A stretch of DNA of 41,482 nt from Dehalococcoidia bacterium (lineage in GTDB: Bacteria > Chloroflexota > Dehalococcoidia > GIF9 > AB-539-J10): contig JAUVZB010000017.1 in assembly GCA_030602785.1 (NCBI GenBank), forward strand, positions 1 through 41,482. The letters are read 5' to 3'. This document shows positions 2,510 to 41,435 of the stretch, one piece after another. Position 1 is the stretch's first letter. Each line of letters opens with the position of its first letter. Made by a program: the position numbers and the translations under genes. The notes beneath the pieces are model-generated. The model had not been told where the DNA came from and searched no databases. It saw nothing but the letters and a program-made list of their open reading frames with translations.

Positions 2510-3247
2510 CTATCCCCCTACTGGAACATACCTGATCGGATTCCTGGCTCCTCTTTTCCTCTCTGGTACCCGCCTACCTACATAGAATGCCTGGGTTTCA
2601 GGTGACGCCTCATGCCCAACGAAACCATGGCGTCCTGGTACAGCCTCATGACCCGGGAAGTTGTCTGGTGTCGCGGGAAGCCATTTCTCTGCGACAAATG
2701 CACCAACGATAATCCCCCCGATAACTGGTAGAACCAGTTCGACCTGCTCTGCCCTGGCCCGGTCGACCTTCCAACAGAACCGAGTGCCCTCGTATAACGA
2801 GACCTCAACAGTTGACCTGCCGACGCTGATCAGGAGAACGTCGTGATAGAAGACCGCAGGCTCAGCGGCATACCTGGCAATGACCTCCTTTGCATGCATC
2901 GCTCCTCGATCAGATGCGGTACCTCCGACGACGTTGGTGAGGCCGGGATAGGCATCGATGAGGGCGGCCTCCACCTCGAAGGCGGTATTCTCGTCCATGC
3001 CATGACGGTGTATGACGTGGGCCACTTCAAAGCCTGCGAGTCGTATCTGCCGAATCCGCTTCAGGCGGTTGTCTAGGGCATCACCTTCGAGATCTTCCTC
3101 TGCATGACTGTGGGCAAAGACTCTGTTGCCTTTCCCCTTTCCGACATAGAACGTCTCACCGTTTCGGGGATCAATGAGCCTATAGACGTAGGTTTTCAGG
3201 TGTTGGACTACCTCTGCTGGAAACGATTCGTTGTCTGAACTGTTCAT
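2510..3247 (-). CDS. GIY-YIG (LEM-3-like) nuclease family protein
   Basis: 245 residues, ATG 3247 behind AAGGAGGAGG. The N-terminal domain carries the variant GIY-YIG signature: TYVYRLID at 19-26, YVGKGKGNRVFAH at 34-46 (Arg in GNR) and FEVEAALID near residue 90, whose Glu is the expected metal ligand. This is the LEM-3/UPF-like branch of the superfamily, which cuts one DNA strand. After about residue 125 there is a second, beta-rich half that I do not recognise, ending in a basic tail. It sits directly upstream of the replication initiator. It may be a homing-type, repair or host-DNA-degrading nuclease. Confidence 0.75.
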   Translation of the reverse strand: MNSSDNESFPAEVVQHLKTYVYRLIDPRNGETFYVGKGKGNRVFAHSHAEEDLEGDALDNRLKRIRQIRLAGFEVAHVIHRHGMDENTAFEVEAALIDAYPGLTNVVGGTASDRGAMHAKEVIARYAAEPAVFYHDVLLISVGRSTVEVSLYEGTRFCWKVDRARAEQVELVLPVIGGIIVGAFVAEKWLPATPDNFPGHEAVPGRHGFVGHEASPETQAFYVGRRVPERKRGARNPIRYVPVGG

Positions 3248-3619: not shown

Positions 3620-3817
3620 TCACCTCCTTTCATCGCCACAGCAACAGGCCCAGGGGCGTCGGCTCGAGCGGCGGATGGTCAGTAGACGATGCTCCGCCAC
3701 GGGCAGCGGCCCCAGGTGGGTGATCACCAGCGCCAGGGCCAGGCAGCCGGCGATCCCCGCCAGGCGCAGCGTGAGCTCGCGCGGCCGGCCGCTCTCATTC
3801 CGAGTCTGTCTGTTCAC
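3620..3817 (-). CDS. Small single-span membrane protein
   Basis: 65 residues; its ATG overlaps the stop of the secreted protein gene as ATGA (3814-3817). Residues about 17-37 (LRLAGIAGCLALALVITHLG) form one hydrophobic span flanked by Arg-rich ends, and the C-terminus has CCCGDERR. I recognise no family. Coupling to the secreted Thr-Pro protein suggests a joint job at the cell envelope, for example superinfection exclusion or spanin-like help in lysis. Neither is shown by motif. The frame is also compatible with a chance ORF in GC-rich DNA. Confidence 0.45.
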   Translation of the reverse strand: MNRQTRNESGRPRELTLRLAGIAGCLALALVITHLGPLPVAEHRLLTIRRSSRRPWACCCGDERR

Positions 3818-4740
3818 TTACTGACAGTCCCTTCGGGATGCTCTTGCTCCAGCAGCGACCAGTAGGAGCCTCCAGAGGGAACGGCGAACGCAGCACAGCC
3901 GACCGGCTCGATACTGGCGTCCCAGTCCCAACTGCCAAAGGTGTCCGTCACCACCACCGTATCTCCAGGAGCAAGCGGCCCGGGAAGCTCCCAGGGGTGA
4001 TCGTAGCCGACAACCTCACCAGTCGGGCCATAGAGCACCATGCCAACTGCCAACGTCTGAACTCGCACGGGCAACTGGTTGCGCACCGTGGCGACCACCT
4101 GCCAGCGGCCATACTCGGACCTGGTGAGCACCGCGCTCTCCACGGCCAGACGTTCTGCCGGATCCCAGTGGACGGTGACCACGTAGGAATCCCAGGCTGG
4201 CAGAGGGTCGTACCAGTACACCCGGAAGGGCGTTCGCTCGCCTGGCAGCAGGATCGGGGCCATAGAGCGACCCGTCTCATTCCCCACGGGCAGCCCGTCG
4301 GCGCCCAACAGATACACGGTCACTCCCGACGCGCTCACCGCGCAGGCCGTGTAGTTGACCAACTCCCCGTAGAACTCCCCTTCCGAGGCGTAATAGTGGA
4401 CGTTCTCCACTCGGACCGTGCCCGGGGGCGGGGGTGTGCCGGTCGGTGTGCCCGTGGCCGTTGCGGTCGCCGTGGCGGTGGCAGTCGCCGTGGGCGTGGG
4501 CGTCGGCGTGGCCGTGGCCGTTGCAGTCGGCGTGGCCGTGTTGGTCGGCGTGGTCGTGCCCGTCGGTGTGGCCGTGGCCGTGTTGGTCGGCGTGGCCGTG
4601 CTGGTCGGCGTCTCCTCTCCTGTGCTCGCGCTCGCCACCAGGGGCAGGAATATGCTGTCAGCCTGTACCTGCGCCACGATCACCCCCAGGCTGAAGGTAG
4701 CCACCAACAGCAGCGGCCAAAGCACTCTCTTGCGATTCAT
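3814..4740 (-). CDS. Secreted protein with Thr-Pro linker and paired Ig-like domains
   Basis: 308 residues with a Sec signal peptide (MNRKRVLWPLLLVATFSLGV, likely cleaved after AQVQA near residue 27). A low-complexity Thr/Pro/Ala linker covers about residues 42-105 and then ends in PPPPG. The rest is two beta-rich units: residues about 108-205 (VENVHYYASEGEFYGELVNYT) and 205-300 (WQVVATVRNQLPVRVQTLAVG), resembling FxLYD/Ig-like extracellular domains. Such linkers are common in Chloroflexota surface proteins. It has a strong AAGGAGAG site and its own upstream hairpin region. In a prophage this looks like a lysogenic-conversion gene that alters the host surface. The target is unknown. Confidence 0.75.
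   Translation of the reverse strand: MNRKRVLWPLLLVATFSLGVIVAQVQADSIFLPLVASASTGEETPTSTATPTNTATATPTGTTTPTNTATPTATATATPTPTPTATATATATATATGTPTGTPPPPGTVRVENVHYYASEGEFYGELVNYTACAVSASGVTVYLLGADGLPVGNETGRSMAPILLPGERTPFRVYWYDPLPAWDSYVVTVHWDPAERLAVESAVLTRSEYGRWQVVATVRNQLPVRVQTLAVGMVLYGPTGEVVGYDHPWELPGPLAPGDTVVVTDTFGSWDWDASIEPVGCAAFAVPSGGSYWSLLEQEHPEGTVSK
4430..4620 (-). repeat. Low-complexity Thr-Pro-Ala coding repeat
   Basis: Degenerate six-base units of the GTGGCC/GTCGGC kind on the plus strand encode the T-P/T-A linker of the secreted protein. The block is prone to slippage and expansion, and it creates long spurious ORFs on the opposite strand. Confidence 0.85.
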
Positions 4741-6195: not shown

Positions 6196-6813
6196 CTAGA
6201 TGATCCTTTCCACCCCGGAGATGCTTTCGTTATAGCCCAGGTCGTCTCGCTTGGCTATGTCCTGTGCTTCCTCGTCAGTCCATGCCTCGATCATCACGGA
6301 CCGCTCGCGCTCTTCCTCGATAAAGACCTCAAACCTGCCTATCTTGCCCGTGCGCTTGGCTTCCTCTATCCTTGCCTCCTTCGCAGCTTCCTCGCGCAAA
6401 GGTCGATCCTTCTTCAGAATCGCCAAAGCCTCGGGAGACCCCAATACTATCTGGGCCATTCCTTCACCCCTCTCCTTTCCCTCAAGTGCCACGACCCGAT
6501 AGCCAAATCCGTAGATGTTCACAAGCCGCTTGGGATCGGCGGGGTCGTCCTCAATCTTGTGACGGACACGCTGGACATGGGTCCTTACTGTAGACGACGT
6601 TCCTATCGATGCCCAGACTTCGTGCCACAATTCCAATGCACTACAGACTCGCGGACTGTGGCTCATCAGGAACCAGAGTATGTGACTCTCGGTCGGCGTA
6701 AGCTGGGCGGTCCTGATCCCGGCATGGACCTCGCCACTGTTCACGTCCAGGACCAAGTCGCCTACGCAAACGACGTACTCGTCCACTGTCATAAGTGCGG
6801 CGCGCTCACTCAC
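6196..6813 (-). CDS. OmpR/PhoB-type winged-helix protein lacking a receiver
   Basis: About 205 residues from GTG 6813, which overlaps the DUF5131 stop as GTGA and has a GGGAAGGGAAGG site. A longer frame to 7044 only overlaps that gene in an unconvincing sequence. Residues about 8-105 form a Trans_reg_C winged helix: LTPTESHILWFLMSH, then VRTHVQRVRHKIEDDP as recognition helix, and LVNIYGFGYRVV as wing. There is no phospho-receiver domain. The last 100 residues are charged and helical (REEAAKEARIEEAKRTGKIG) with a small unknown end. The whole is a DNA-binding regulator fused to an unknown domain. It probably controls phage or host genes without a partner kinase. Confidence 0.75.
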   Translation of the reverse strand: MSERAALMTVDEYVVCVGDLVLDVNSGEVHAGIRTAQLTPTESHILWFLMSHSPRVCSALELWHEVWASIGTSSTVRTHVQRVRHKIEDDPADPKRLVNIYGFGYRVVALEGKERGEGMAQIVLGSPEALAILKKDRPLREEAAKEARIEEAKRTGKIGRFEVFIEEERERSVMIEAWTDEEAQDIAKRDDLGYNESISGVERII

Positions 6814-7655
6814 GACGCCTTCCCTTCCCTGTCTCGAAATCGCCATGCTTGATACGGGGGAAACTCTTTCACTTCTTGGCCTTCCCTGTCCAGCAAGGGC
6901 ACGCCTGGATGCGGCCCCGAATCCTGTTTCAGGAAGACAGGCACCCCCTCCCTTCGGCCCACCTCGAGCACGTCCCAAGCCCAATCCCACCTGAGCGGAC
7001 GCCGCTTGCGGTCGGGACCAGACTCGGCGCCGATCACCAGCCAATCCAGGCCAGCCCTCCAGTAATCCCAGTTGTTCCGAGGCCGCACCCCTAGGGAATC
7101 GACATGCACTGGACCGAGATACGGTTCCATGTCAATCGGCCCCAGCATCGGCTCCATGCTCACCCATCTCAGGGCGGCGGGTGTCTTCAGCAGCTCATCG
7201 ATGCGCCACAGGTTGTCCTCGTTCTCGACGGTGACGCCGAGCCACAGATTGGGTAGGGGTGGAGTTGTTGCGCACCACCGTAGGAGTTCTTCTCGCATCC
7301 TCTTGGGTCGCTTCGTCAAAACCAGCCAGTCCACGTCTGGTCTGTCCCATACGAGGACCAGAAAGCGTCGAATGATATTGGTGGCCACATCCTTATGGAA
7401 CAGATCCCCCATATCCACCACAAAGGCCAGCGGTCGGCTCCCTGCTCCCCGCTTGTACGGCGGCTTGGGCCGCCACTTAAGCAGTCGCGCCAATTTCTCG
7501 GGATAGACGGTCACTTTGGAGAAGTCCTTACCGAAGCGCTCATAGATGCGGCGAGCGTAGCAGTTGGCGCAGCCCGCTGACACGGCCGTGCATCCCAGCA
7601 CGAAATTCAGGTCCCCGCCCGAATAGTCGCAGTAGCCGATGTTGCTTGTGCGCAC
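6810..7655 (-). CDS. DUF5131 (phage Gp37/Gp68 family) protein, Cys-cluster
   Basis: About 281 residues from GTG 7655, chosen because AGGGGAG precedes it and it follows the upstream stop directly. ATG 7721 would overlap that gene by 64 bases. The family hallmark GC-x6-GCANCYA is present (C22, C29, C32), then VVDMGDLFHKDV, WLVLTKRPKRM, LWLGVTVEN and RWVSMEPMLGPID, ending near WLVIGAESGP. The family resembles a radical-SAM-like TIM barrel with a Cys cluster. It is widespread in phages and mobile elements, and its chemistry is unproven. Here it is preceded by a canonical radical-SAM gene in the same operon, suggesting a joint pathway. Confidence 0.85.
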   Translation of the reverse strand: MRTSNIGYCDYSGGDLNFVLGCTAVSAGCANCYARRIYERFGKDFSKVTVYPEKLARLLKWRPKPPYKRGAGSRPLAFVVDMGDLFHKDVATNIIRRFLVLVWDRPDVDWLVLTKRPKRMREELLRWCATTPPLPNLWLGVTVENEDNLWRIDELLKTPAALRWVSMEPMLGPIDMEPYLGPVHVDSLGVRPRNNWDYWRAGLDWLVIGAESGPDRKRRPLRWDWAWDVLEVGRREGVPVFLKQDSGPHPGVPLLDREGQEVKEFPPYQAWRFRDREGKAS

Positions 7656-7657
7656 GT

Positions 7658-8485
7658 CTACTCTCCCCTGGTGGCGATCATCGCTGCTGGGCGTGACCAA
7701 GTTCGCGCTAGCGCGCGCCACTCAGTGCTGTAAGCGATCTTGTGTCTAGAGTCTCTATACAGTTGCGCGAACGGCATGAATCCCATGTCCCACACAGCTT
7801 CCAAGCGCTTCAAGGCTGTCTCGCAAGATTCCCCACCGAAAGCAAGGAGGACGTAGCAGCGCAGCTCATGCCGTGACAGGAATGGGAGTTGTGGCGCCAC
7901 GCCTCTCAGATTCTCAAGGCCCACTTCAGAATCAGCCGAAAAGAATACCTGGCCTATCTTCACTCTTCGCAACTGTTCCACAGTCCACTCAGTCAGCAAC
8001 CGCGAGTCCAGCCCACCAGGGAAGCTGACCGCTCGCTTTTGAGCTCGCAACATCTCGAAGACCTTTTCCTGATGGGAGCGCGACGTGGCCAGCAGGTTGT
8101 TGTCCTGGATGATCCAGCCAGGCTTGATCTCTAGCTCCCGAAGTGGCCCCTCTCGTTTCGGCACAACACACCAGGGACATCTGTGCGGGCAGCCCCGGCT
8201 GGTGATGGTGACGCCGCTCTTGACATAAAGTCCTACGGTAAACTCCCCTGGTGGGCCAGTGTCTATTGCTGGGCCATCTATCTTGACGATGGGATAATAC
8301 TGTGCCCACGCATCCCTCAAGCGACGGCCCGTCTCCACATCCCAAGTGAACGTCACCGAGACATGCACCTCATCGACAGCGGCGCCTTCTGGCCGAAACA
8401 GGGGCGGCTCTCCAACAAAGGCCAGGGCATCTACCGGGGTCATCGATGTTCGGCGCGGAAACACCCTCAGTATTCTTTTGCCCAT
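7658..8485 (-). CDS. Radical SAM protein (phage type)
   Basis: 275 residues. The radical-SAM cluster motif is TSRGCPHRCPWC (C99-x3-C103-x2-C106), which should bind a 4Fe-4S cluster that cleaves S-adenosylmethionine. Next come the barrel segments IQDNNLLA, VSFPGGLDSRLL and VFFSADSEVGLENL, the last of which has the layout of a SAM-binding strand. The opening RILRVFPRRTSMTP...FVGEPPLF, followed by EVHVSVTFTWD, is a phage-specific N-terminal domain. The substrate is unknown. It is separated by two bases from the gene upstream and by two from the DUF5131 start, so all three are probably one transcript. Confidence 0.85.
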   Translation of the reverse strand: MGKRILRVFPRRTSMTPVDALAFVGEPPLFRPEGAAVDEVHVSVTFTWDVETGRRLRDAWAQYYPIVKIDGPAIDTGPPGEFTVGLYVKSGVTITSRGCPHRCPWCVVPKREGPLRELEIKPGWIIQDNNLLATSRSHQEKVFEMLRAQKRAVSFPGGLDSRLLTEWTVEQLRRVKIGQVFFSADSEVGLENLRGVAPQLPFLSRHELRCYVLLAFGGESCETALKRLEAVWDMGFMPFAQLYRDSRHKIAYSTEWRALARTWSRPAAMIATRGE

Positions 8486-23685: not shown

Positions 23686-24044
23686 GATCCGAGCTCCGCC
23701 GTGGCCTCGTACTGCCGTTCCACGCAGTCGATCTCCAGATGGTGTCCGGCCCTCGATGGCTCTCGCACGCCCACAACCTCCACGGTCACCCCGTCACCCT
23801 CTACCTGATCGCCACGCTGGACATCGCTATCCGCCGTGACATAGAGCACATGTCTGATCTCTCTCTCCTCTCGCGCCCCCGGACTCTGCTCTCCGCCCCG
23901 TTCGCCTCCACCGATTGGCCGCAACCGCCCCTCTACGGTACCCACTTCATTGTAGGCTATGGCCCAGCCCCCCTGGCCATCACTCGCCCGCTCTCGGCGG
24001 CGCACGGTGAAGGTGTGATTGAGTAGTGCCTCGAAAAGTGTCAT
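23682..24044 (-). CDS. Head-tail adaptor (SPP1 gp16/H-T joining type)
   Basis: 120 residues, with the layout of a head-closure protein: LLNHTFTVRRRERASDGQGGWAIAYNEVGTVEGRLRPI, then REIRHVLYVTADSDVQRGDQVEGDGVTVEVVGVREPSRAGHHLEIDCVE. The Gly-Gly-W and D-V-Q-R-G-D-Q-V patterns recur in the H-T joining family. It closes the connector after DNA packaging. It overlaps both neighbours by ATGA. Confidence 0.85.
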   Translation of the reverse strand: MTLFEALLNHTFTVRRRERASDGQGGWAIAYNEVGTVEGRLRPIGGGERGGEQSPGAREEREIRHVLYVTADSDVQRGDQVEGDGVTVEVVGVREPSRAGHHLEIDCVERQYEATAELGS

Positions 24045-24640
24045 ATTCGGTACCTGTTCAAGAGTTCCATCTCGCTACGCAGTAGTATCGGCGCAGCGCT
24101 GGCCCCTAGCACTCCCCCGCTCCCTCCGCCTCCCTCTGCCCCGAAGGACACCGAATAGTCGCCCAGGCCCATTGCCGTCACCCCTGGCACCGCATCTGTC
24201 TCCGCTGCCTTCAACCCCGCTTGATAGGCCCTGGCTGCCGCTCGGGTGCATATGGCCAGTACATCCTCAGGGATCGGCTCGTAGCCGTGCGTGTAGGTGA
24301 TGGTGACGATCTGAACGCCCTTGGCCCAGTCCTGGTCTACTCGATGCAGGATCCCATGCTGGGCGAGCTTATAGTCGTCGCCTTCAACCAATAGCTTGCC
24401 ATCCTCAATCACACTCGATACCTCGACAGCCGGCAGCTGGGGCAAGAACAACCGCCTGCCCCCGGCCGAATCCAGGGTGATCTCGTCGTTCTCCTCCTGC
24501 TCGATCTGCTGGCGGCAATAATTCTGGATGGCCACCGAGGCCTCCAAGATCGCCCGATCCGCTGAATCGATAGATGCGGCGGCCGTGATCTCGATCTGCA
24601 GGAACTGTTCCAGATCCACGAGGCTGCAGAAATTGACCAT
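24041..24640 (-). CDS. Head-tail connector (gp6/gp15-like)
   Basis: 199 residues. The N-terminal helices (LVDLEQFLQIEITAAASIDSADRAILEASVAIQNYCRQ) and the segment VTITYTHGYEPIPEDVLAICTRAAARAYQ with Y-T-H-G-Y-x-x-I-P-x-D-V are the family signature of the ring that sits under the portal. The C-terminus is Gly-rich with a short last helix (LLRSEMELLNRYR). It is the first gene after the glycosylation island, so normally it would follow the major capsid gene. Confidence 0.88.
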   Translation of the reverse strand: MVNFCSLVDLEQFLQIEITAAASIDSADRAILEASVAIQNYCRQQIEQEENDEITLDSAGGRRLFLPQLPAVEVSSVIEDGKLLVEGDDYKLAQHGILHRVDQDWAKGVQIVTITYTHGYEPIPEDVLAICTRAAARAYQAGLKAAETDAVPGVTAMGLGDYSVSFGAEGGGGSGGVLGASAAPILLRSEMELLNRYRI

Positions 24641-24792
24641 CAGGTTTGGCCTTTATTCTTCGCCGGCCTTCGTGCCTTATCCAGCCTGTCCCGCCGGGCC
24701 TTGCGTCGTTCCTCGCGAGTCGCAGCCAGATCGTCCGCTCGCCGTTTCTTCGTCCGCTCCATGCGGGCGCTCATCCGATCGCTTGCTTTCAT
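24640..24792 (-). CDS. Small very basic protein
   Basis: About 50 residues from ATG 24792, overlapping the previous stop as ATGA and behind GGAGGGGGAGG. The sequence is almost only charged residues (RMERTKKRRADDLAATREERRKARRDRLDK), a long helix likely to bind nucleic acid or to be disordered. It lies at the end of the glycosylation island, before the connector gene. Its role is unknown; a structural or DNA-condensing role in the head is possible. Confidence 0.6.
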   Translation of the reverse strand: MKASDRMSARMERTKKRRADDLAATREERRKARRDRLDKARRPAKNKGQT

Positions 24793-25427
24793 CGCCGCCT
24801 CCCCCTCCTGAGTTGCCTCTCCCACTGCTTCTTGGTCTTTTCCTCTTCCCCTGGCTTACAGCGCACGTAGCGCCCAGGAGCTATCTCCACCCTCACCAGC
24901 TTACTCCGCTGGCTCTGGCGGGTCCGGCGGGCCGGCCGCTTCGTGCGCCTGCCCTCCACTTTGCTCGACCATGTGCGCGGCAGCGCCAGGAACAGCGGCT
25001 TCACCCGATATACCGCTCGCAGGAATGCCAATCGTGGCTCCCCACCGCCCGCCATTTCCTGCTCCCAGGTGGCCAGCAATGCACGACCATCGGGGCTATT
25101 CCGCACGAACAGCAGCTCCTGGGCATAGACTAACACCCTCAGATCTCGCGTGACCTTCTGCGTGCGTTTCTGCTCCCCTGGTGCACCCACATCGGCAGCC
25201 ACTTTGCCGTACCGCCACAGCGGTGCTGCCGCATCCCACCGCTGTAGGAAGTGAAAGCCATGCCTCACTAGATCCCATGGGATGACCGTGCCCGGCGCCA
25301 CGATCAGCACGCGGTCGAACTCTATCTCGGCCAGACTGCCATCGGCGATGACGACCTCCAGCCTATGCCTCTTGGCCCGCGCCTGGACCTGTTTGTCTGG
25401 CTCACGCAGGATCAGCACGTCCGTCAT
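24789..25427 (-). CDS. Unrecognised protein of the glycosylation island
   Basis: About 212 residues from ATG 25427, overlapping the methyltransferase stop as ATGA. The start MTDVLILREPDKQVQARAKRHRLEVVIADGSLAEIEFDRVLIVAPGTVIPWDLVRHGFHFLQRWDAAAPLWRYG contains beta-alpha segments like a Rossmann or GT-A-like fold, without a clear DxD. The last 80 residues are strongly basic (SSKVEGRRTKRPARRTRQSQRSKLVR) and may bind nucleic acid or virion parts. It could be an inactive or divergent sugar transferase, or a carrier for the others; neither can be shown from motifs. Confidence 0.6.
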   Translation of the reverse strand: MTDVLILREPDKQVQARAKRHRLEVVIADGSLAEIEFDRVLIVAPGTVIPWDLVRHGFHFLQRWDAAAPLWRYGKVAADVGAPGEQKRTQKVTRDLRVLVYAQELLFVRNSPDGRALLATWEQEMAGGGEPRLAFLRAVYRVKPLFLALPRTWSSKVEGRRTKRPARRTRQSQRSKLVRVEIAPGRYVRCKPGEEEKTKKQWERQLRRGRRR

Positions 25428-25888
25428 TTCCGCACCTGCAACGTCGCGAGGATAGACGACCTCTGGTCGTTCAGATAAGGCGGCTTCACAAATGCCCACT
25501 TGCGTTGAGTATAGAAGCTAAGCTCCTTCCCCAGCCTAGTCTCGGGAATGAAGACATTGAAACAGCGCAGACTGTACCGATACCTATGCGTCGGATCGGC
25601 ATAGGAATTATCATGCTGCCAATGAGGTAATTTCACTCGCAATGTTCCCTCTGGGCGCAGAATCCGCCAGCATTCATCCAGGGCCATTACCAGGTTGATC
25701 GTCAAGTGCTCGAATACCGAGGAGGCTGCGATGTGATCAAAGCTCCCATCCTCCCAGGGCCAGGGAACATCATTCAGATCATGGGCCACGTCGATCTCCG
25801 GGCGATGCCTGCGCAGGTCGTGGTTCACCGCCCCTTTCCAGAGATGGTTGCCTGCACCTAGGTTCAGAACCCTCAGCCCCGTTGCCAA
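25424..25888 (-). CDS. Class I SAM-dependent methyltransferase
   Basis: About 154 residues from TTG 25888, chosen because GGGGAGGCGCAG precedes it and it overlaps the previous stop by 16 bases; the longer frame to 26044 runs through the glycosyltransferase gene. Motif I is VLNLGAGNHLW, followed by an acidic end of strand 2 (INHDL), then WPWEDGSFDHIAASSVFEHL (motifs II-IV) and LRPEGTLRVKLPHW. This is a compact small-molecule or sugar methyltransferase. Next to glycosyltransferases it probably caps or marks a glycan, for example by O-methylation. Confidence 0.8.
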   Translation of the reverse strand: MATGLRVLNLGAGNHLWKGAVNHDLRRHRPEIDVAHDLNDVPWPWEDGSFDHIAASSVFEHLTINLVMALDECWRILRPEGTLRVKLPHWQHDNSYADPTHRYRYSLRCFNVFIPETRLGKELSFYTQRKWAFVKPPYLNDQRSSILATLQVRK

Positions 25889-26481
25889 CTGCGCCTCCCC
25901 TCGCCGATGTGCTCGGCCAGCGGCAAGGCGCACAACCATCGACCCTGAGCATTCAGATGCGCACAGATCCGGTGGTCGTACTTGTGTGAGTTCTCCGGTA
26001 CCATAGGCCCTATCTCCCGCCAGAGCTCCGGCCGAAACGACCAATTGGCCCCGGGCACCGTGCGCCGTACCAGGACCACCTGCCCCCCGATGACCTTGGT
26101 CCTGATCACCGGCGACCAGTGATAGGCCGGCTCGATGCTGAGCGTGCAGATCGCCACCTTTGGCGATGCTGCCCCCCAGAACGCCACCAGGCGCTCGAGC
26201 CAGCGATCGTGATACTCATAATCGTCACCGGTGAGAAGGAGCAGATCTGGCCGACGCTTGAGAGCCAGAGCCATCGCCGCCCGAACGCCGTGCCCGATCG
26301 TATGATTGCCCGTCTTGTTACAGACCCCGCCACGCTGGGCCACCAGTTCTTCGGTCCCATCCGACGATCCATTGTCATAGAACACGAGCTCCAAGGGCAA
26401 AGTTGAGAGATCCAGGCTCTTGACGGTGCGCTTCCACAGAGCACGTCGGTTGTAGCTCAGCACTGCCGCCACCACTTTCAT
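25873..26481 (-). CDS. GT2 glycosyltransferase
   Basis: 202 residues. The fold begins VVAAVLSYNRR (residues 3-13), YDNGSSDGTEEL (35-46) marks the nucleotide-binding region, and LLLTGDDYEY (81-90) with D86-D87 serves as the metal site. Later VVLVRRTVPGANWSFRPELWREIG looks like the acceptor region. This is a single-domain GT-A (family 2) enzyme without a membrane span, suggesting a soluble acceptor such as protein. It overlaps both neighbours by a few bases. Confidence 0.85.
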   Translation of the reverse strand: MKVVAAVLSYNRRALWKRTVKSLDLSTLPLELVFYDNGSSDGTEELVAQRGGVCNKTGNHTIGHGVRAAMALALKRRPDLLLLTGDDYEYHDRWLERLVAFWGAASPKVAICTLSIEPAYHWSPVIRTKVIGGQVVLVRRTVPGANWSFRPELWREIGPMVPENSHKYDHRICAHLNAQGRWLCALPLAEHIGEGRRSWQRG

Positions 26482-27158
26482 CGCTTATACACCTGCAAAT
26501 GATGAAGGATGAGAAGCCAGACAGTCATCAGCTCGAGTACGCCAGCCAGTCTCAGAGATGATCGCCCGGCACGATAGGTGATGGGAACCTCTCGCACTCT
26601 CATTCCAAGCTCTCGCACCCGGGCCAGCACTTCGATCTGCCAGGCGTGCATCTTCGCCCGATAAGTCACCTTCAGCAGTTCCTTCACCACGTGAGCGGAG
26701 TAGACCCGGTATCCGCTGGACCAATCCCGTATCCAGGGCCCGCGCTGGGCCAGATTGCACAGTATCCCAGCCAAACGGGTGCCCAACCGTCTCTGCCAGG
26801 ATCCGCCGAGATAGAGGCCCCCCGACACAAAGCGAGATCCGATCACCAGATCGGCTTCTTCTCGCAGTAGCCTCCGTATGTGCCCTGGACGGTGCGAGCC
26901 ACCCGCATCCATCACCAGGATGCGCTCTGCTCCGCACTTGAGCGCCGCACGCCAGCCGTCTATGATTGAGCTGCCAATGCCCTCAGGGGTCGCGTGACGG
27001 ATAACCTCCGCACCCGCAGCCCAGGCCAGCTTCCCTGTTCCGTCTCCCGAGCCATCGTCTACTACGATCACTGGCCCGAATTGCTTGGCTACTGCGACCA
27101 ACATGCCGATCGTGGCCACTTCATTGAGAGCCGGAATCACTATCACGACATCACTCAC
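26478..27158 (-). CDS. GT2 glycosyltransferase, dolichyl-phosphate mannosyltransferase-like
   Basis: 226 residues. IPALNE (8-13), VVDDGSGDGT (32-41) and ILVMDAGGSH (80-89) follow the pattern of Dpm1-like enzymes; the last motif reads DAGGS instead of the usual DADLQ/DADGS, with only one acidic residue. A hydrophobic C-terminal segment (VLELMTVWLLILHHL, about 207-221) may touch the membrane. Enzymes like this transfer a sugar to a polyprenyl phosphate, or directly to the next carrier. It lies between two other glycosyltransferases with ATGA overlaps, so it belongs to their pathway. Confidence 0.85.
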   Translation of the reverse strand: MSDVVIVIPALNEVATIGMLVAVAKQFGPVIVVDDGSGDGTGKLAWAAGAEVIRHATPEGIGSSIIDGWRAALKCGAERILVMDAGGSHRPGHIRRLLREEADLVIGSRFVSGGLYLGGSWQRRLGTRLAGILCNLAQRGPWIRDWSSGYRVYSAHVVKELLKVTYRAKMHAWQIEVLARVRELGMRVREVPITYRAGRSSLRLAGVLELMTVWLLILHHLQVYKR

Positions 27159-28909
27159 CGAGTTCTCCTCCGCCGCGCTCCGCCAGGCCCCTGCCCCTCA
27201 AACCGCCGTACCATCCGCCACGCCTCCAGGCTGTCGATCCGCCCGGGGATCATGCCTTTCCATCGCCTAGCGTCGCCCGGATAGTGCATCAGGCCCGCTG
27301 TCGTGATTCCCTTCGTGTACTTGGGGAAGGTGTTCCATTCGTTCCCCAACACCAGCATCTTGAGCGGATCCGCGTATAGCGCCCGGATGAGAGCCCCCTG
27401 ATCTCTCTGCGCGTGGCGCTCCCATTCTTTCTGCCACCGGCTGAAAAAAGCCGCTATCCGCTTGCTCCGACCGAATGCCCATACACCCCCGTTCAACTGA
27501 AGGGTGTGCAGAGTGCTCACCAGCTTCTCCGTCTCGGCCAGCTCCTGCTTGTTGTAGCGGCGCTCGAATGAGTGCATGGTGTCCATCAGGTGCGGGTCTT
27601 TACAGATGACCAACTCCCAGCCGTCCTCGATCCATTCAAAGTAGCGGTAGATCGGAGCCACCACTTCGGTGTCTGCATCCAGATAGAGCACCGCCCCCCA
27701 CTCGGCAGGGCTCAACTCGTATGCCTTCAGCTTGGCCCGACGGCCGCCCACGTCGCTGTCGGGCTGCACGATCAGCAAGTCCTCTGGCCCGATCTTCCGG
27801 TCCGAGCAAAGCGCAACAGGCACGTCCGGCATGTGTTTCTTGATGCTGTTCAGCAAACGCAAGGCGCAGCTCCGCGCCGGATCGCCAAAGGCCACGCAGT
27901 AGATCCCACGCGTCTTCCCTGTCTCACGCTCCACAGGCGGCTCGACCGGCTCGGCTGGGATCTCGATAGCCTGTACCGTGGTAGCAGCCGCATCCTCCTC
28001 GAGGCCGCCGTTCACCCGTTCCTCGACTCGTTCAGCCATCAATCCCCTGAATGCGCTCACGTGATCCTCACACCAGGCTTCCATTGAGTACTTGGCCGTC
28101 ACCGCCCGCAGTGCCTCGCGGTCGATGTCCCCCCGCGCCTTGACCGCCTTGCCCAGCGCCTTGATCAGGCTCTTCACATCGCCACGTTCATAGCGATGGA
28201 TGCCAAGTCTCTGGGGCAATTCGTCCAGTATGCCCACTCCGCGCGGCACGACCACGCTCACCCCGCAAGCCAACGCCTCGAGGGGAGGCATCGGGATCCC
28301 CTCCACCCGCCCGGTGGCCACCAGCACATCCAGCCCCTGGTAGAACCAGGGCATGTCCGCCCAGGCGTATCGTATGGTCGGCACCGGCCAACCCCGCCCG
28401 CTTGCTTTCCATTCCACTCGATGCCCCACGGGAGACTTGAGCAGGGCGATCGCCAGGTCCTGGCCCTTCCGCTTGTTGACGTAGGTGTAGCCCGAAAGAC
28501 CCACCACGGGGCACTTGTGCCCCTTCTGCCGCCTGGCGATCACGAATCGATCTCGCTCCAACGGGGCCGCCACCTGGACCGTCGGCCCATACCGGCGCAA
28601 CGCATCGGCGTACATCCTGCATGTGGCCACTCGCAGCTGCACCCGCTCCGCCATCTGGTCGTAGAGCTTGGCCTTGGCGTTTCCGGGAGGCACCTCCTCG
28701 CGGTGGGTGAAGTAGGCCGCCACCGGCACGCGGGGCCAGCGCTGGACCTTCTGCCCCTCAAAGTAGGCCAGCAGATACAGCGCGTCGGCCCCTTCCGTGT
28801 TGGGCGCCGCAGTCAACGACCATCCCAGCCGATCTGCCAAGGCGCGAGCCATCCGAGGGATGACCCGATCCGCCTTATAGTTCCGGCAGACCACGTTTAC
28901 ATGCGGCAC
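27155..28909 (-). CDS. Two-domain glycosyltransferase (GT-B plus GT-A fusion)
   Basis: 584 residues. Residues about 1-295 are a GT-B enzyme of the GT4 kind: VVGLSGYTYVNKRKGQD, then E203-x7-E211 (EGIPMPPLE), ALACGVSVVVP. A linker (about 296-332) joins a GT-A domain: YCVAFGDPARSCALRLLNSI, LYLDADTEV with the DxD pair D411/D413, LQLNGGVWAF, and DQGALIRALYADPL near 500. It resembles GT8-like enzymes. Both active sites look complete, so it could add two sugars in order. It begins only 17 bases after the major capsid gene, which suggests expression with the virion proteins. Confidence 0.85.
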   Translation of the reverse strand: MPHVNVVCRNYKADRVIPRMARALADRLGWSLTAAPNTEGADALYLLAYFEGQKVQRWPRVPVAAYFTHREEVPPGNAKAKLYDQMAERVQLRVATCRMYADALRRYGPTVQVAAPLERDRFVIARRQKGHKCPVVGLSGYTYVNKRKGQDLAIALLKSPVGHRVEWKASGRGWPVPTIRYAWADMPWFYQGLDVLVATGRVEGIPMPPLEALACGVSVVVPRGVGILDELPQRLGIHRYERGDVKSLIKALGKAVKARGDIDREALRAVTAKYSMEAWCEDHVSAFRGLMAERVEERVNGGLEEDAAATTVQAIEIPAEPVEPPVERETGKTRGIYCVAFGDPARSCALRLLNSIKKHMPDVPVALCSDRKIGPEDLLIVQPDSDVGGRRAKLKAYELSPAEWGAVLYLDADTEVVAPIYRYFEWIEDGWELVICKDPHLMDTMHSFERRYNKQELAETEKLVSTLHTLQLNGGVWAFGRSKRIAAFFSRWQKEWERHAQRDQGALIRALYADPLKMLVLGNEWNTFPKYTKGITTAGLMHYPGDARRWKGMIPGRIDSLEAWRMVRRFEGQGPGGARRRRTR

Positions 28910-28926: not shown

Positions 28927-30249
28927 TCAGCTGCCTGCCGTCAGGTCCACCAGGATGAAGCCCGACGGACGGATCACACCGAACGCGGCTCTCATCTCGG
29001 CCAGGATGGCCACCATGTTGCGGATAAAGAAGTCCGCGTGGCTATCCGACACCTGGATGTTCGCTCGCTCGCGGTCCCACACCACCGCCTTCCGCCAGTC
29101 GCCCAGAAGAGCGCTCCCCTCTGCCATCTGCACGTTCTGCACCACCGGGTAGCCCCAGTGCGTTCGCACCCCCTGCCGGATCGGCCCGCCATAGTAATAG
29201 CGCCCGTCCTCATCCTGCAACAGATCGATCGTCTCCCAGTCCGCCGGGTGCATCACCCATGCCGTCGGTATAGTTCGTCCGGTCACCAGCAGAGAGGTGA
29301 TCGCCTTCCTGGTCGTGGTCAACATGTCCGTATCCCATGCCTGGGCCAGTACTCCAGCGGTGTTGAGCAGCCCGGTAAAGTTCTCACCCACGCCGTTCCC
29401 GTTGAGGATCTGGCTCTCAAACTCCTCCGCCAGGTCGTCGCGCAGCTCGGAGTCGATGATGCCCCGAATCTGAGCGACGTCCGACAGCGCGCGCTTCGTC
29501 GCCGGGATCCAGACCGCGATGGTCTTGACCGGTTCGGTCACCTGCAGCCACTCGCTCACACCTTCTGGCTTCTCGCCCGAGACCTCGCCCGTGGCTCCCG
29601 AGTACTCGGTCACGTTGGCCTCTGGCACCGGCTCTGCCTGGGTCACCTGGGTCACCTGGCGCACATAGTGTACCAGGTCGCTCGTGGTCTGCCGGATGGT
29701 CACCAGGGTGCGCAGATTCAGCGGAGCCCGACCGATCGCTTCATAGATCCGCGTATAGTCGATCTCCACGAATGCGCCCGCCGAGGCATCATCGCTCCCG
29801 ACTATCAGCTCCTTCCGGCTCGGGCCCAGACCCAGAAGCGACTTGAACTCGATGGGGGGAGAGTTTAGTCCCCTGGCCCCGTCCGGTACGCGCCCGCCCG
29901 GAGCGACCTGCTTCATCCACGCCTTGAACGCTGGCGCATTCACGAACTGCGCGCCGACCGTTGCGCCCTTGAGCGCACCGGGCGCCCCGAGTGCCGGCTG
30001 GCCGCCGCCGTTCCCGCCCAGCTCCAAGCCTGCGCCCAGGTCCACCAGGGCCTTGCGCAATGCATCATCGCCCTCGGCCGTCTTGATCTTCTCTTTCCAC
30101 TGACCGGCTTCCGTCAGGTAGCCGGCCACCTTCTGCCGCTCCTCGTCGGTGAAGTCGCGCTTCGCTTCTTCCGCTACGTCGCAAAGGGCCCTTCCAGCCA
30201 GCAAAGCCGCCTGCAGTTTCTCTTTCAGTTCCTTGATGGTCATCGTCAT
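28927..30249 (-). CDS. Major capsid protein (HK97 fold)
   Basis: 440 residues, the typical size. The first 100 residues are helical and charged (IKELKEKLQAALLAGRALCDVAEEAKRDF), the delta/scaffold domain that the protease removes. The mature part begins near residue 110-120 after a Gly-rich stretch (GGNGGGQPALG). Sequences such as PLNLRTLVTIRQTTSDLVHYVRQ, ILNGNGVGENFTGLLNT, and DWETIDLLQDEDGRYY are the usual HK97 A/P-domain patterns, and the end has VRTHWGYPVVQN. It forms the icosahedral shell. It overlaps the protease by ATGA. Glycosyltransferases directly follow. Confidence 0.93.
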   Translation of the reverse strand: MTMTIKELKEKLQAALLAGRALCDVAEEAKRDFTDEERQKVAGYLTEAGQWKEKIKTAEGDDALRKALVDLGAGLELGGNGGGQPALGAPGALKGATVGAQFVNAPAFKAWMKQVAPGGRVPDGARGLNSPPIEFKSLLGLGPSRKELIVGSDDASAGAFVEIDYTRIYEAIGRAPLNLRTLVTIRQTTSDLVHYVRQVTQVTQAEPVPEANVTEYSGATGEVSGEKPEGVSEWLQVTEPVKTIAVWIPATKRALSDVAQIRGIIDSELRDDLAEEFESQILNGNGVGENFTGLLNTAGVLAQAWDTDMLTTTRKAITSLLVTGRTIPTAWVMHPADWETIDLLQDEDGRYYYGGPIRQGVRTHWGYPVVQNVQMAEGSALLGDWRKAVVWDRERANIQVSDSHADFFIRNMVAILAEMRAAFGVIRPSGFILVDLTAGS

Positions 30250-38313: not shown

Positions 38314-38783
38314 TGCATCTGGCCCGTCTTGCGCAGATAGGTCTCAAACTCATCTTCCGGGATCTGCTCGGGAGCTTCCAGCCGGGAGCGCGACGCCGGA
38401 GTGAGACCGAACTCTTTGCCGAACTTCAACACCTGGGCCCAGGAGTGATTCGAGATCCCCACCAACGGGTTCTGGATCACATTGTCATTGGTCGTCTTGA
38501 TCAGAAGTCCGGTCTTCTCAATTGACCGGTCGGCCTTGACCGCTCGCGAGTAGTGTGTGCAATAGCCGGTCAGAGCCGCTCGGTCCAGGAGCGTCAGTAA
38601 GCCACATGCCCGATACCAGCGAACGATCCTCCGCCATTCTCGTCTCGCATCAGCATTCAGGTGGGATGGGCAACGCGGCGGACTCTTGCTCGCGATTCGT
38701 GGCTCCCGTCTGTTCAATGGGCGCCTGCCAGGATTGCCCGCCAATACCTTCAATGCCGTCGGTTTCGGTGGAGGACCACTCAT
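38310..38783 (-). CDS. terS: Terminase small subunit (P27 family)
   Basis: 157 residues. The opening SGPPPKPTALKVLAGNPGRRPLNRREP is the diagnostic start of P27-type small terminases, followed by PSHLNADARREWRRIVRWYRACGLLTLLDRAALTGYCTHYSRAVKA and IQNPLVGISNHSWAQVLKFGKEFGLTPASRSRL. It binds the packaging site and hands DNA to TerL. Its start overlaps the methyltransferase stop by four bases, so the two are coupled. Confidence 0.93.
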   Translation of the reverse strand: MSGPPPKPTALKVLAGNPGRRPLNRREPRIASKSPPRCPSHLNADARREWRRIVRWYRACGLLTLLDRAALTGYCTHYSRAVKADRSIEKTGLLIKTTNDNVIQNPLVGISNHSWAQVLKFGKEFGLTPASRSRLEAPEQIPEDEFETYLRKTGQMQ

Positions 38784-40093
38784 GATTCCATTAGCCTCGG
38801 CTCCAGGCCCATGTCGGCGACGCGCTCGAGGGTGACCGCGACGTACTTCGGTTCAATCTCCATGCCATAACAGAGGCGGCCTAATTGCTCAGCAGCGATG
38901 ATAGTCGTACCCGAACCAAGGAACGGATCGTATACATCGCCTTCGTGGTTGCGAATAGGCCTCGCCATGCATTCCAGGGGCTTCTGCGTCGAGTGGCCAC
39001 CGTCGACCGTCCTGTCTCCCCCGATTTCCCAAACCGTCGTACACGACGCTGGGAAGGTATAGATGGTCGACTCATCCACCCGCGCGGCATACAACACGTC
39101 ATCGCCACACCAGGTATCTATTATGTCTGCCCAAAGCGTGCTCTGCCTTCGCCCGCCCTTGAACCTCGCCGGCGCCCCCTTTCGTACAGCATACCAGCAC
39201 AACTCGTGCGCCCAATGATAGTTTCCACGGGAAAGAGCAAAGCGCTTCTTAGCCCAAACAATCTGTGCTCTCAGAGTAAAGCCAGCGGCCTGCAAACCCC
39301 TCGCCACATCCATTGCATAAATGGCCGCATGCCAGACATAGGCCACATCGCAACCCGACCGAATGTATGCAGCTGACCATTTTGCCCTGTCGTCGCTGGT
39401 CACCTTTCCCATCCGACCACCACTAGATACGCCGACGTCTTTTCTCCATTCTGGATTGTAGTTTACGCCATAAGGAGGATCGGTCACCATGAGTGTCGGC
39501 TGCGCCTTTGCCATGAGCCTTCGCCCATCCTCCGTGCTCGTGCTATCCCCGCACATCACCCGATGGCACTTCCCCACCACCGTGTTACTCGGAATCTCCC
39601 AAACCTGCGCTCGCTCGACGCCCCACCTCTCTCGCAACTCCTCGGCCCTGTCCATCTGTGGCTCCGGCGGCTCGCCATCATCGGGCCCCACATTCTTCAA
39701 CAGCTCGGACAATTCGTCTGCACTGAACATGCCATCCAGCAGACCTTCGTCCTCCGCCATTAGGCCCGCCAGGATCTCAGGGTCCCAGTCAGCCAGCTCT
39801 CCCACCCTATTGTCGTAAAGAGACAGCTTGCGCTTTTCCGTCTCGGTCAGGCCGCTGCGGCGCACCGCGATGATCTCGTTCCCATCCGCTTCGATCACCC
39901 GGAGCCGCTCAATCCCCGCCAGCCCTGCTGCCTCAACCACACCGTGGCCGGCCAGGATCGTGTCATCCTCGTCGATCACGATAGATCGTGCCGCCCCCAC
40001 CTCTTGAAGGGAGCCTACAAGCATGTCAATGTTGCGCCGGCTGTGTTTCCGCGCATTCTTCGGATCCGCTTTTAGCTCCGCGATACTCCCCAT
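38780..40093 (-). CDS. ParB-domain DNA methyltransferase (DPPY type)
   Basis: 437 residues. Residues about 1-100 are a ParB/Srx-like domain (PKNARKHSRRNIDMLVGSL, ILAGHGVVEAA, IIAVRRSG). The methyltransferase part has motif IV TDPPYGVNY (DPPY at 205-208) and motif I DPFLGSGTT (389-397), in the beta-class order IV then I. This suggests N6-adenine (or N4-cytosine) methylation of DNA. No restriction enzyme gene is next to it. It likely protects phage DNA from host nucleases or marks it for packaging. It shares the first 100 residues at 84% identity with its neighbour. Confidence 0.88.
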   Translation of the reverse strand: MGSIAELKADPKNARKHSRRNIDMLVGSLQEVGAARSIVIDEDDTILAGHGVVEAAGLAGIERLRVIEADGNEIIAVRRSGLTETEKRKLSLYDNRVGELADWDPEILAGLMAEDEGLLDGMFSADELSELLKNVGPDDGEPPEPQMDRAEELRERWGVERAQVWEIPSNTVVGKCHRVMCGDSTSTEDGRRLMAKAQPTLMVTDPPYGVNYNPEWRKDVGVSSGGRMGKVTSDDRAKWSAAYIRSGCDVAYVWHAAIYAMDVARGLQAAGFTLRAQIVWAKKRFALSRGNYHWAHELCWYAVRKGAPARFKGGRRQSTLWADIIDTWCGDDVLYAARVDESTIYTFPASCTTVWEIGGDRTVDGGHSTQKPLECMARPIRNHEGDVYDPFLGSGTTIIAAEQLGRLCYGMEIEPKYVAVTLERVADMGLEPRLMES

Positions 40094-40106
40094 TCAGATT
40101 GACTCC

Positions 40107-41435
40107 CTATGATTCCAATAGCCTCGGCTTCAGGCCCATGTCGGCGAGGCGTTGCAGGCTGACGGCGACATATTTCGGCTGGATCTCCATGCCATGGCCT
40201 ATTCGCCCCGTCACCTCCGCTGCGGTTATAGTCGTGCCAGAACCCAGAAAAGGATCGAGGACAATCTCCGTCTTCCCCGAATGCATCTTGATGGCCCGCG
40301 TCGGTAGCTCGATCGGAAACATCGCCGGATGCTCCTTGTTAGCCGGGACCGTATTCATGCGCCAGACACCAGCATATCCCCAATCTTTCCGCTCCCTCTT
40401 ACTCAGGCGCCTCACAAAGCGGTGTTTGCCGCCCGCAAATCCTATCATCCATTCAAAGTCGGACACATCCGGTACATCCTCTTGCAATATGACAAGAGCA
40501 TCGACGGCCTGGCCAAATGCTGCAGCATATTCATACTGCTGAACAGGCTTATTCGATGCCAAATGATAGGGCCCAACTCCAAAGTTTGCCCCTGGCTTCA
40601 ACCATATCCGAATCCATAGGGGCCGATAGCCCTGCTCCATGAACATCGAGATGCTATAGGCCATGGTCGGCTCGATGAATTGAGACCCAGTACAATACAG
40701 ATCCCCGATATTCCAGACAACGATCTTGGCGCTTTTGCACAAGAGCCTGATGGCAGGCCGTACCGTATCGAACCAAGGGCCTATTCCTTTCGTCTCATAG
40801 CTCTTGCCGACACCGTAAGGGGGGCTTGTAACAGCCAGGGCTGCCATACTGCCCTTCATCAGCTGTTCCACATCCTCTGCGACCGTGCTGTCGCCACACA
40901 TGACTCGATGGCATCCCCGAGCCGTCCTGCTCGGAATCTCCCAAACCTGCCCGCGCGCGGCGCCCCACGTTTCGCACAGCTCCTCGGCTTTGTCGATTTG
41001 AGCGTCCGGTGGTTCGCTTTGATTCTCCTCGAGATCCTTCAATATGTCGGACAATTCGTTTGCACTGAACATGCCAGCGAGTAGATGCTCATCCTCGTCG
41101 ATTAACTCCGCCAATTTCTCGGGCGCCCAATCCGCCAGCTCTGCCACCCTGTTGTCGTATAGGGAGAGCTTCCGCTTTTGTCTCTCGGTGAGGCCGCTAC
41201 GGCGCACGGCAATGATCTCATTCCCATCGGCTTCGATGACCCGCATTCGGTCGATCCCCGCGAGCCTCGCCGCCTCAATCACACCATGGCCAGCCAGAAT
41301 CATGTCCTCTTCATCGATCACGATAGATCGCGCCGCGCCCACCTGTCGCAGCGAGTCTGCCAGCATGTCGATGTTGCGCCGGCTGTGTTTGCGCGCATTT
41401 TTCGGATCCGGTTTCAACTCCGCGATAGTCTCCAT
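40107..41435 (-). CDS. ParB-domain DNA methyltransferase (SPPY type)
   Basis: 442 residues, paralogous to the next gene. The ParB-like start (residues 1-100) is 84 of 100 identical to it; the end from FLGSGTT on has 35 of 47 identical residues. In between the two differ strongly: motif IV here is TSPPYGVGKS (SPPY at 204-207), typical of N4-cytosine enzymes, followed by a different recognition part (GPYHLASNKPVQQYEYAAAFGQAVDALVILQ). It is the first gene of the packaging region and, on a circle, comes right after the HNH gene. No weak or broken motif is visible. Confidence 0.88.
   Translation of the reverse strand: METIAELKPDPKNARKHSRRNIDMLADSLRQVGAARSIVIDEEDMILAGHGVIEAARLAGIDRMRVIEADGNEIIAVRRSGLTERQKRKLSLYDNRVAELADWAPEKLAELIDEDEHLLAGMFSANELSDILKDLEENQSEPPDAQIDKAEELCETWGAARGQVWEIPSRTARGCHRVMCGDSTVAEDVEQLMKGSMAALAVTSPPYGVGKSYETKGIGPWFDTVRPAIRLLCKSAKIVVWNIGDLYCTGSQFIEPTMAYSISMFMEQGYRPLWIRIWLKPGANFGVGPYHLASNKPVQQYEYAAAFGQAVDALVILQEDVPDVSDFEWMIGFAGGKHRFVRRLSKRERKDWGYAGVWRMNTVPANKEHPAMFPIELPTRAIKMHSGKTEIVLDPFLGSGTTITAAEVTGRIGHGMEIQPKYVAVSLQRLADMGLKPRLLES

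Follow-up and report, generated by a model that had tools for sequence, protein, structure and literature searches.

What is a run of glycosyltransferase genes doing between the major capsid gene and the head-tail connector gene of a phage, and on what might its products act? The window, by which we mean the whole 41,482-nucleotide stretch of Dehalococcoidia DNA analysed, corresponds to contig C45 in a metagenome-assembled genome of 2.57 Mb. It reads as most of a tailed phage encoded on the minus strand, in the order two DNA methylases, terminase, portal, LamG and fibre-like proteins, protease, capsid, island, connector, tail genes, integrase, and holin; comparison of the contig ends revealed no overlap. 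The two tandem ParB-like/N6-N4 DNA methyltransferases lie at 38780-41435, upstream of the terminase. Elsewhere in the window we noted a DUF5131 protein adjoining a radical-SAM-like protein (6810-8485), an OmpR-type winged-helix C-terminal domain (6196-7044; Trans_reg_C, 2.4e-17) that is a possible phage regulator, a LEM-3-like GIY-YIG nuclease domain (2510-3247; 6.3e-11), and a weak mucin-like match (3814-4740; 5e-4, under the Pfam cut-off), a possible type of glycan acceptor.

The island consists of five minus-strand genes spanning 28909-24789, each overlapping the next, and the first begins 17 nt past the capsid stop codon. Gene calls, this 17-nt gap, and the overlaps confirm an earlier note, made from the window alone, that the genes are co-oriented and translationally coupled between capsid and connector. 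The junctions are 4-nt overlaps, except at the methyltransferase, which has a likely TTG start (25888) within the GT2 gene ahead of it. The features are as follows.

28927..30249, minus strand: HK97-type major capsid protein (Phage_capsid, 9.8e-46; PHROG major head protein, 1.6e-60); the upstream anchor.
27155-28909, minus strand: double glycosyltransferase (GT), whole gene.
28034..28909, minus strand: N-terminal GT-B (GT4-type) domain of the double GT, residues ~1-292 (Pfam Glyco_trans_1_4, above cut-off).
27155..27925, minus strand: C-terminal GT8-like, predicted GT-A domain of the double GT, residues ~329-584.
26478..27158, minus strand: GT2 with a GtrB/DPM-synthase-like catalytic domain (Glycos_transf_2, 1.6e-10; phrog_841, 1.8e-12); accessory cassette.
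25873..26481, minus strand: second GT2 (Glycos_transf_2, 2.6e-9); accessory cassette.
25424..25888, minus strand: class I methyltransferase, a frequent core gene, likely TTG start (Methyltransf_11, 1.9e-8).
24789..25427, minus strand: 212-aa putative pseudo-GT at the conserved 3' end of the island; a DxD-less candidate paralogue of the GT8-like domain.
24640..24825, minus strand: small basic ORF at the position that an ordinary head gene (gp7/gp8) takes in isolated actinophages; the border.
24041..24640, minus strand: head-tail connector (phrog_442 head-tail adaptor, 6.9e-34); the downstream anchor.

With the start at 25888 the methyltransferase is 154 aa long, and its relatives are 150 to 154 aa; an ORF previously called at 236 aa likely starts at 25427, at the ATG of an ATGA overlap, to give 212 aa. 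Pfam and PHROG bore out the identities first proposed for the double GT, the two GT2s, and the methyltransferase. Hydropathy analysis found no membrane segments in the island enzymes, as expected of soluble glycan enzymes of a cytoplasmic type, and Pfam and PHROG recognised neither a flippase nor a ligase nor a polymerase among the island or cassette genes. The island was considered as recently acquired alien DNA, and this was rejected, as the double GT (0.640) matches the capsid gene (0.644) in GC content; the methyltransferase is lower, at 0.548.

The N-terminal half of the double GT has a confidently predicted GT-B fold (Foldseek, 6.5e-11 to GT-B enzymes), and the EX7E motif is intact in 67 of its 69 relatives; this combination of fold and motif places it in the GT4 kind. 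The C-terminal half can be called GT8-like, an assignment that is remote: its profile matches glycogenin-2 at 1.2e-4, Glyco_transf_8 matches the equivalent half in relative L126 at 0.0012 (below the Pfam cut-off), and the AlphaFold model, good for the N-terminal half, has low confidence here. Its DxD motif is present in 80 of 80 relatives. In some relatives the double GT is split into two genes (L118:1896-3819, L121:2160-4092, and L116:2340-4353), with a small ORF of 90 to 152 aa and without a Pfam match lying between them.

The 212-aa protein had been described as unrecognised, and it indeed has no database match. When profiles were built from 53 sequences, however, its alignment to the double GT's GT8-like half was significant (hhalign, 94.8%, E = 4.8e-8); with 8 sequences only, it was not (3%). 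It also shows weak fold matches to GT-A enzymes. We identify it as a putative divergent, degenerate paralogue of the GT8-like domain, again by remote similarity. The family has no DxD at the aligned position, and for that reason we call it a pseudo-GT and infer that catalysis has been lost. In L057 and L126 the pseudo-GT is fused to a Methyltransf_24 domain.

The downstream limit of the island was drawn differently in the earlier note, which counted the small basic ORF as part of it and supposed that capsid and connector genes are usually joined directly. Relatives instead have the capsid gene, one small gene, and the connector; this is the arrangement of the empty site in the isolated actinophages Raymond7 and LittleTokyo, and the basic ORF fills that ordinary slot. 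Members of the small head gene family lie downstream of many islands, and L137 has one at its empty site; the family therefore marks the outer border. The match of the basic ORF itself to this family is marginal (0.0015, in a 5-sequence search), and it probably lies outside the island.

No match to the double GT was found in 50,697 phage records; IMG/VR yielded 96 relatives, and contigs from genomes and metagenome-assembled genomes gave ten hits, four of which are labelled Chloroflexi, Anaerolineae, or Anaerolineales. To avoid bias, the search was run from the capsid protein instead of the double GT. It gave 216 loci, sampled as the best 80 of each search: 120 with an island, 76 with an empty site, 14 too short, and 6 other. 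ORFs in these loci were called by a simple longest-ORF rule, on metagenomic contigs that are often short. In a FastTree phylogeny of 164 distinct capsid proteins, drawn from the same best 80 loci per search, the island state changes twice, by one gain and one loss. The gain lies at the base of a 101-member capsid clade (support 94), and 99 of the 101 members carry the island, so that the glycosyltransferases are neither absent nor scattered among close relatives. One exception is a natural loss, in L137, and the island is therefore not essential; the other, L129, has an HNH endonuclease gene (L129:7369-8388) directly 3' of the capsid gene, at the island entry site, after which the contig ends. 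In L018, the closest IMG/VR relative of the window, the portal gene is a single ORF of 1050 aa, interrupted in frame by a portal intein with Intein_splicing and LAGLIDADG domains (L018:337-3489). The island also sits among structural genes in unrelated phages (L009, L051, L122, L125, and L126). The same gene order, which the earlier note proposed to seek in related phages, recurs in ∼100 distinct phages, far beyond chance. A single insertion placed the island between the capsid gene and the small head gene, and nearly all members of the clade have kept it.

Variation was examined in 74 distinct loci that are complete as far as the pseudo-GT or the connector. They hold 29 recognised gene orders with conserved ends, and a further seven of the 74 have no recognised cassette gene; the capsid gene is immediately upstream of the island in 61. 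The pseudo-GT is present in 67 loci and, by Pfam identity, a Methyltransf_11 enzyme in 53, a sulfotransferase in 23, a GT2 in 21, Methyltransf_24 in 21, UDP-sugar dehydrogenase in 4, and epimerases in 1. Double GT, methyltransferase, and pseudo-GT form the commonest order and the common core; the two GT2s are accessory, and the particular set in the window is not the special feature that it was taken to be. Even its nearest relatives differ, L015 by an added sulfotransferase and L054 by an extra methyltransferase.

Cassettes are swapped between related backbones, as judged from sequence comparison of L194 and L195. Their capsid proteins share 93.5%, and DNA homology that covers the capsid gene and enters the double GT is almost gone over the GT8-like half and the cassette, and returns in the pseudo-GT. 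Between the window and L054, synonymous divergence is 0.20 to 0.66 in island genes, compared with 0.06 and 0.02 for the two genes that follow; dN/dS values of 0.08 to 0.40 show purifying selection on all island genes. Co-variation was measured by permuting identity matrices, a procedure that does not fully remove shared descent. The GT8-like half and the pseudo-GT gave a rho of 0.67 (0.55 within the main type), compared with 0.08 for pseudo-GT and methyltransferase, 0.31 for capsid and connector, and 0.17 for capsid and GT8-like half. The co-variation may stem in part from shared descent or joint transfer. Since the pseudo-GT tracks the GT8-like half across a methyltransferase that does not, these values suggest that the two may form a working pair.

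From these gene contents and positions we consider it probable that the island is a modular, serotype-like locus for virion glycosylation, with a virion protein as acceptor. Several observations favour a virion protein: the enzymes are soluble, export genes are absent, and translation is coupled to the capsid gene; the island has been retained with the capsid in one clade, and lies among structural genes even in unrelated phages; and the closest match of the GT8 domain is glycogenin, an enzyme that glucosylates protein. Coupling and copy number make the capsid protein the leading candidate. The LamG/DUF2341 and fibre-like proteins, once suggested as carriers, are not supported in that role, as LamG is beside the island in no other locus and a fibre-like protein is near it in few. 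Since these enzymes are also found alongside unrelated capsids, a fixed capsid-sequence acceptor is not required. A few columns differ between capsids of the island and empty clades (e.g., Y169 and N212), a comparison confounded by shared descent; for this reason we make no claim for such columns as the acceptor site. The soluble enzymes would work in the cytoplasm, late in infection. The double GT would place the first one or two sugars onto a structural protein, and the pseudo-GT would be a subunit for specificity or acceptor docking that pairs with the GT8-like domain; the GT2s of the cassette would extend the glycan, and other cassette enzymes would decorate it, with methyl in the window and with sulfate, uronic acid, or epimerised sugars in relatives. 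Exchange of cassettes would then give related phages different surface glycans, much as bacteria vary theirs through O-antigen loci.

A virion protein is a likelier target than the host surface or DNA. Phage genes of the gtr type could alter lipid-linked envelope-glycan precursors, leading to superinfection exclusion or receptor masking, and the GtrB-like PHROG match of one GT2 (phrog_841), an integrase with which the phage could act as a prophage, and exchangeable glycan genes that fit surface diversity would all suit this. We nevertheless regard it as unlikely: neither a GtrA flippase nor GtrC nor a membrane segment was found in island or cassette proteins, the island lies in the late structural block and not near the integrase, and most relatives lack the GT2 but retain the double GT and pseudo-GT. 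Phage glycosyltransferases can also act on DNA, as those of T4 glucosylate it, and here two DNA methylases share the operon. Glycosylation of a modified base for protection from restriction is still very improbable for this island, given that a scan that covered the main window proteins found no base-hydroxymethylating, thymidylate-synthase-like, or other base-preparing enzyme, that the place behind the capsid gene differs from known DNA-modification loci, and that DNA glycosylation is not known to involve sulfotransferase or UDP-sugar dehydrogenase variants.

The island might instead be a site that tolerates insertions, filled with genes of varied use to phage or host and having no common virion function. 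However, the ends are conserved in nearly all loci, every island gene is under purifying selection, the DxD is intact in 80 of 80, retention is vertical, and the contents are functionally coherent (sugar transfer, methyl, sulfate, and sugar-nucleotide enzymes). These features make such an accessory-gene hot spot quite unlikely, even though cassette content varies and homing-type elements occur nearby in relatives (the L129 HNH gene and the L018 intein). The gene set is reshuffled among phages in the way that bacteria exchange their surface-sugar genes, which suggests a distinct sugar coat for each phage.

Phage virion glycosylation is already known; what is new is the island architecture behind the capsid gene. 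A literature search whose coverage left out most subscription papers found no description of the arrangement. Phage-encoded virion glycosylation has been described for the mycobacteriophages Che8 (gp108-110), Corndog (gp38), and Myrna, whose glycosyltransferases reportedly act on capsid and tail-tube proteins (Freeman et al. 2023, as cited in PMC12363180). Che8 resembles the island in having several overlapping glycosyltransferase genes in a row, but these lie near the right end of its genome (56171-58673 of 59472) rather than behind the capsid gene. Membership of the Che8 enzyme family was rejected, with no significant BLASTP match to the Che8 glycosyltransferases; a GT2b profile matched gp108 weakly (3.2e-5, in a 3-sequence search), at the level of the GT2 superfamily, and beyond this the double GT and pseudo-GT show no homology to Che8. 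Cassette swapping and sulfotransferase variants are features of the island, and neither was seen here for the Che8 genes.

The gtrABC serotype-conversion cassettes of temperate phages share with the island a GtrB-like GT2, and are phage genes that change a surface glycan, as the island would. The island lies inside a structural operon and has no flippase or membrane-bound GtrC-type protein, no GtrA-type flippase or membrane-bound glycosyltransferase being matched by Pfam or PHROG in the island beside the GtrB-like GT2. Bacterial O-antigen and capsule loci have conserved ends, a variable middle of sugar enzymes, and allele replacement by recombination, all of which the island resembles; unlike them it is phage-borne, in a capsid operon, and without genes for export, polymerisation, or ligation. 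In Chlorovirus PBCV-1, virus-encoded glycosyltransferases act in the cytoplasm on the capsid protein; this is a eukaryotic giant virus with an unrelated capsid, and is likened to the island phages by description. The remote likeness to glycogenin and other GT8 enzymes covers the C-terminal half of the double GT, which differs from them in its fusion to a GT4 domain and in having a DxD-less paralogue alongside.

Virion glycosylation was previously shown in a few isolates, whereas here ∼100 environmental phages apparently have it built into the capsid operon, at a locus that is near-fixed in its clade and recombines like a surface-antigen locus. We tentatively propose that the island may be a phage serotype locus, an exchangeable block that sets the identity of a methylated, sulfated, or uronic-acid glycan on the capsid surface throughout a large clade of uncultured phages, with a catalytically dead GT8-like paralogue co-evolving with the active domain for acceptor docking and diversification driven by extracellular encounters. 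If so, phage capsids would have serotypes that do not necessarily answer animal immunity, and the ecological reason for sugar-coating a phage would become testable. In that case the pseudo-GT and sulfotransferase variants would also offer new enzymes for glycosylating proteins in the cytoplasm.
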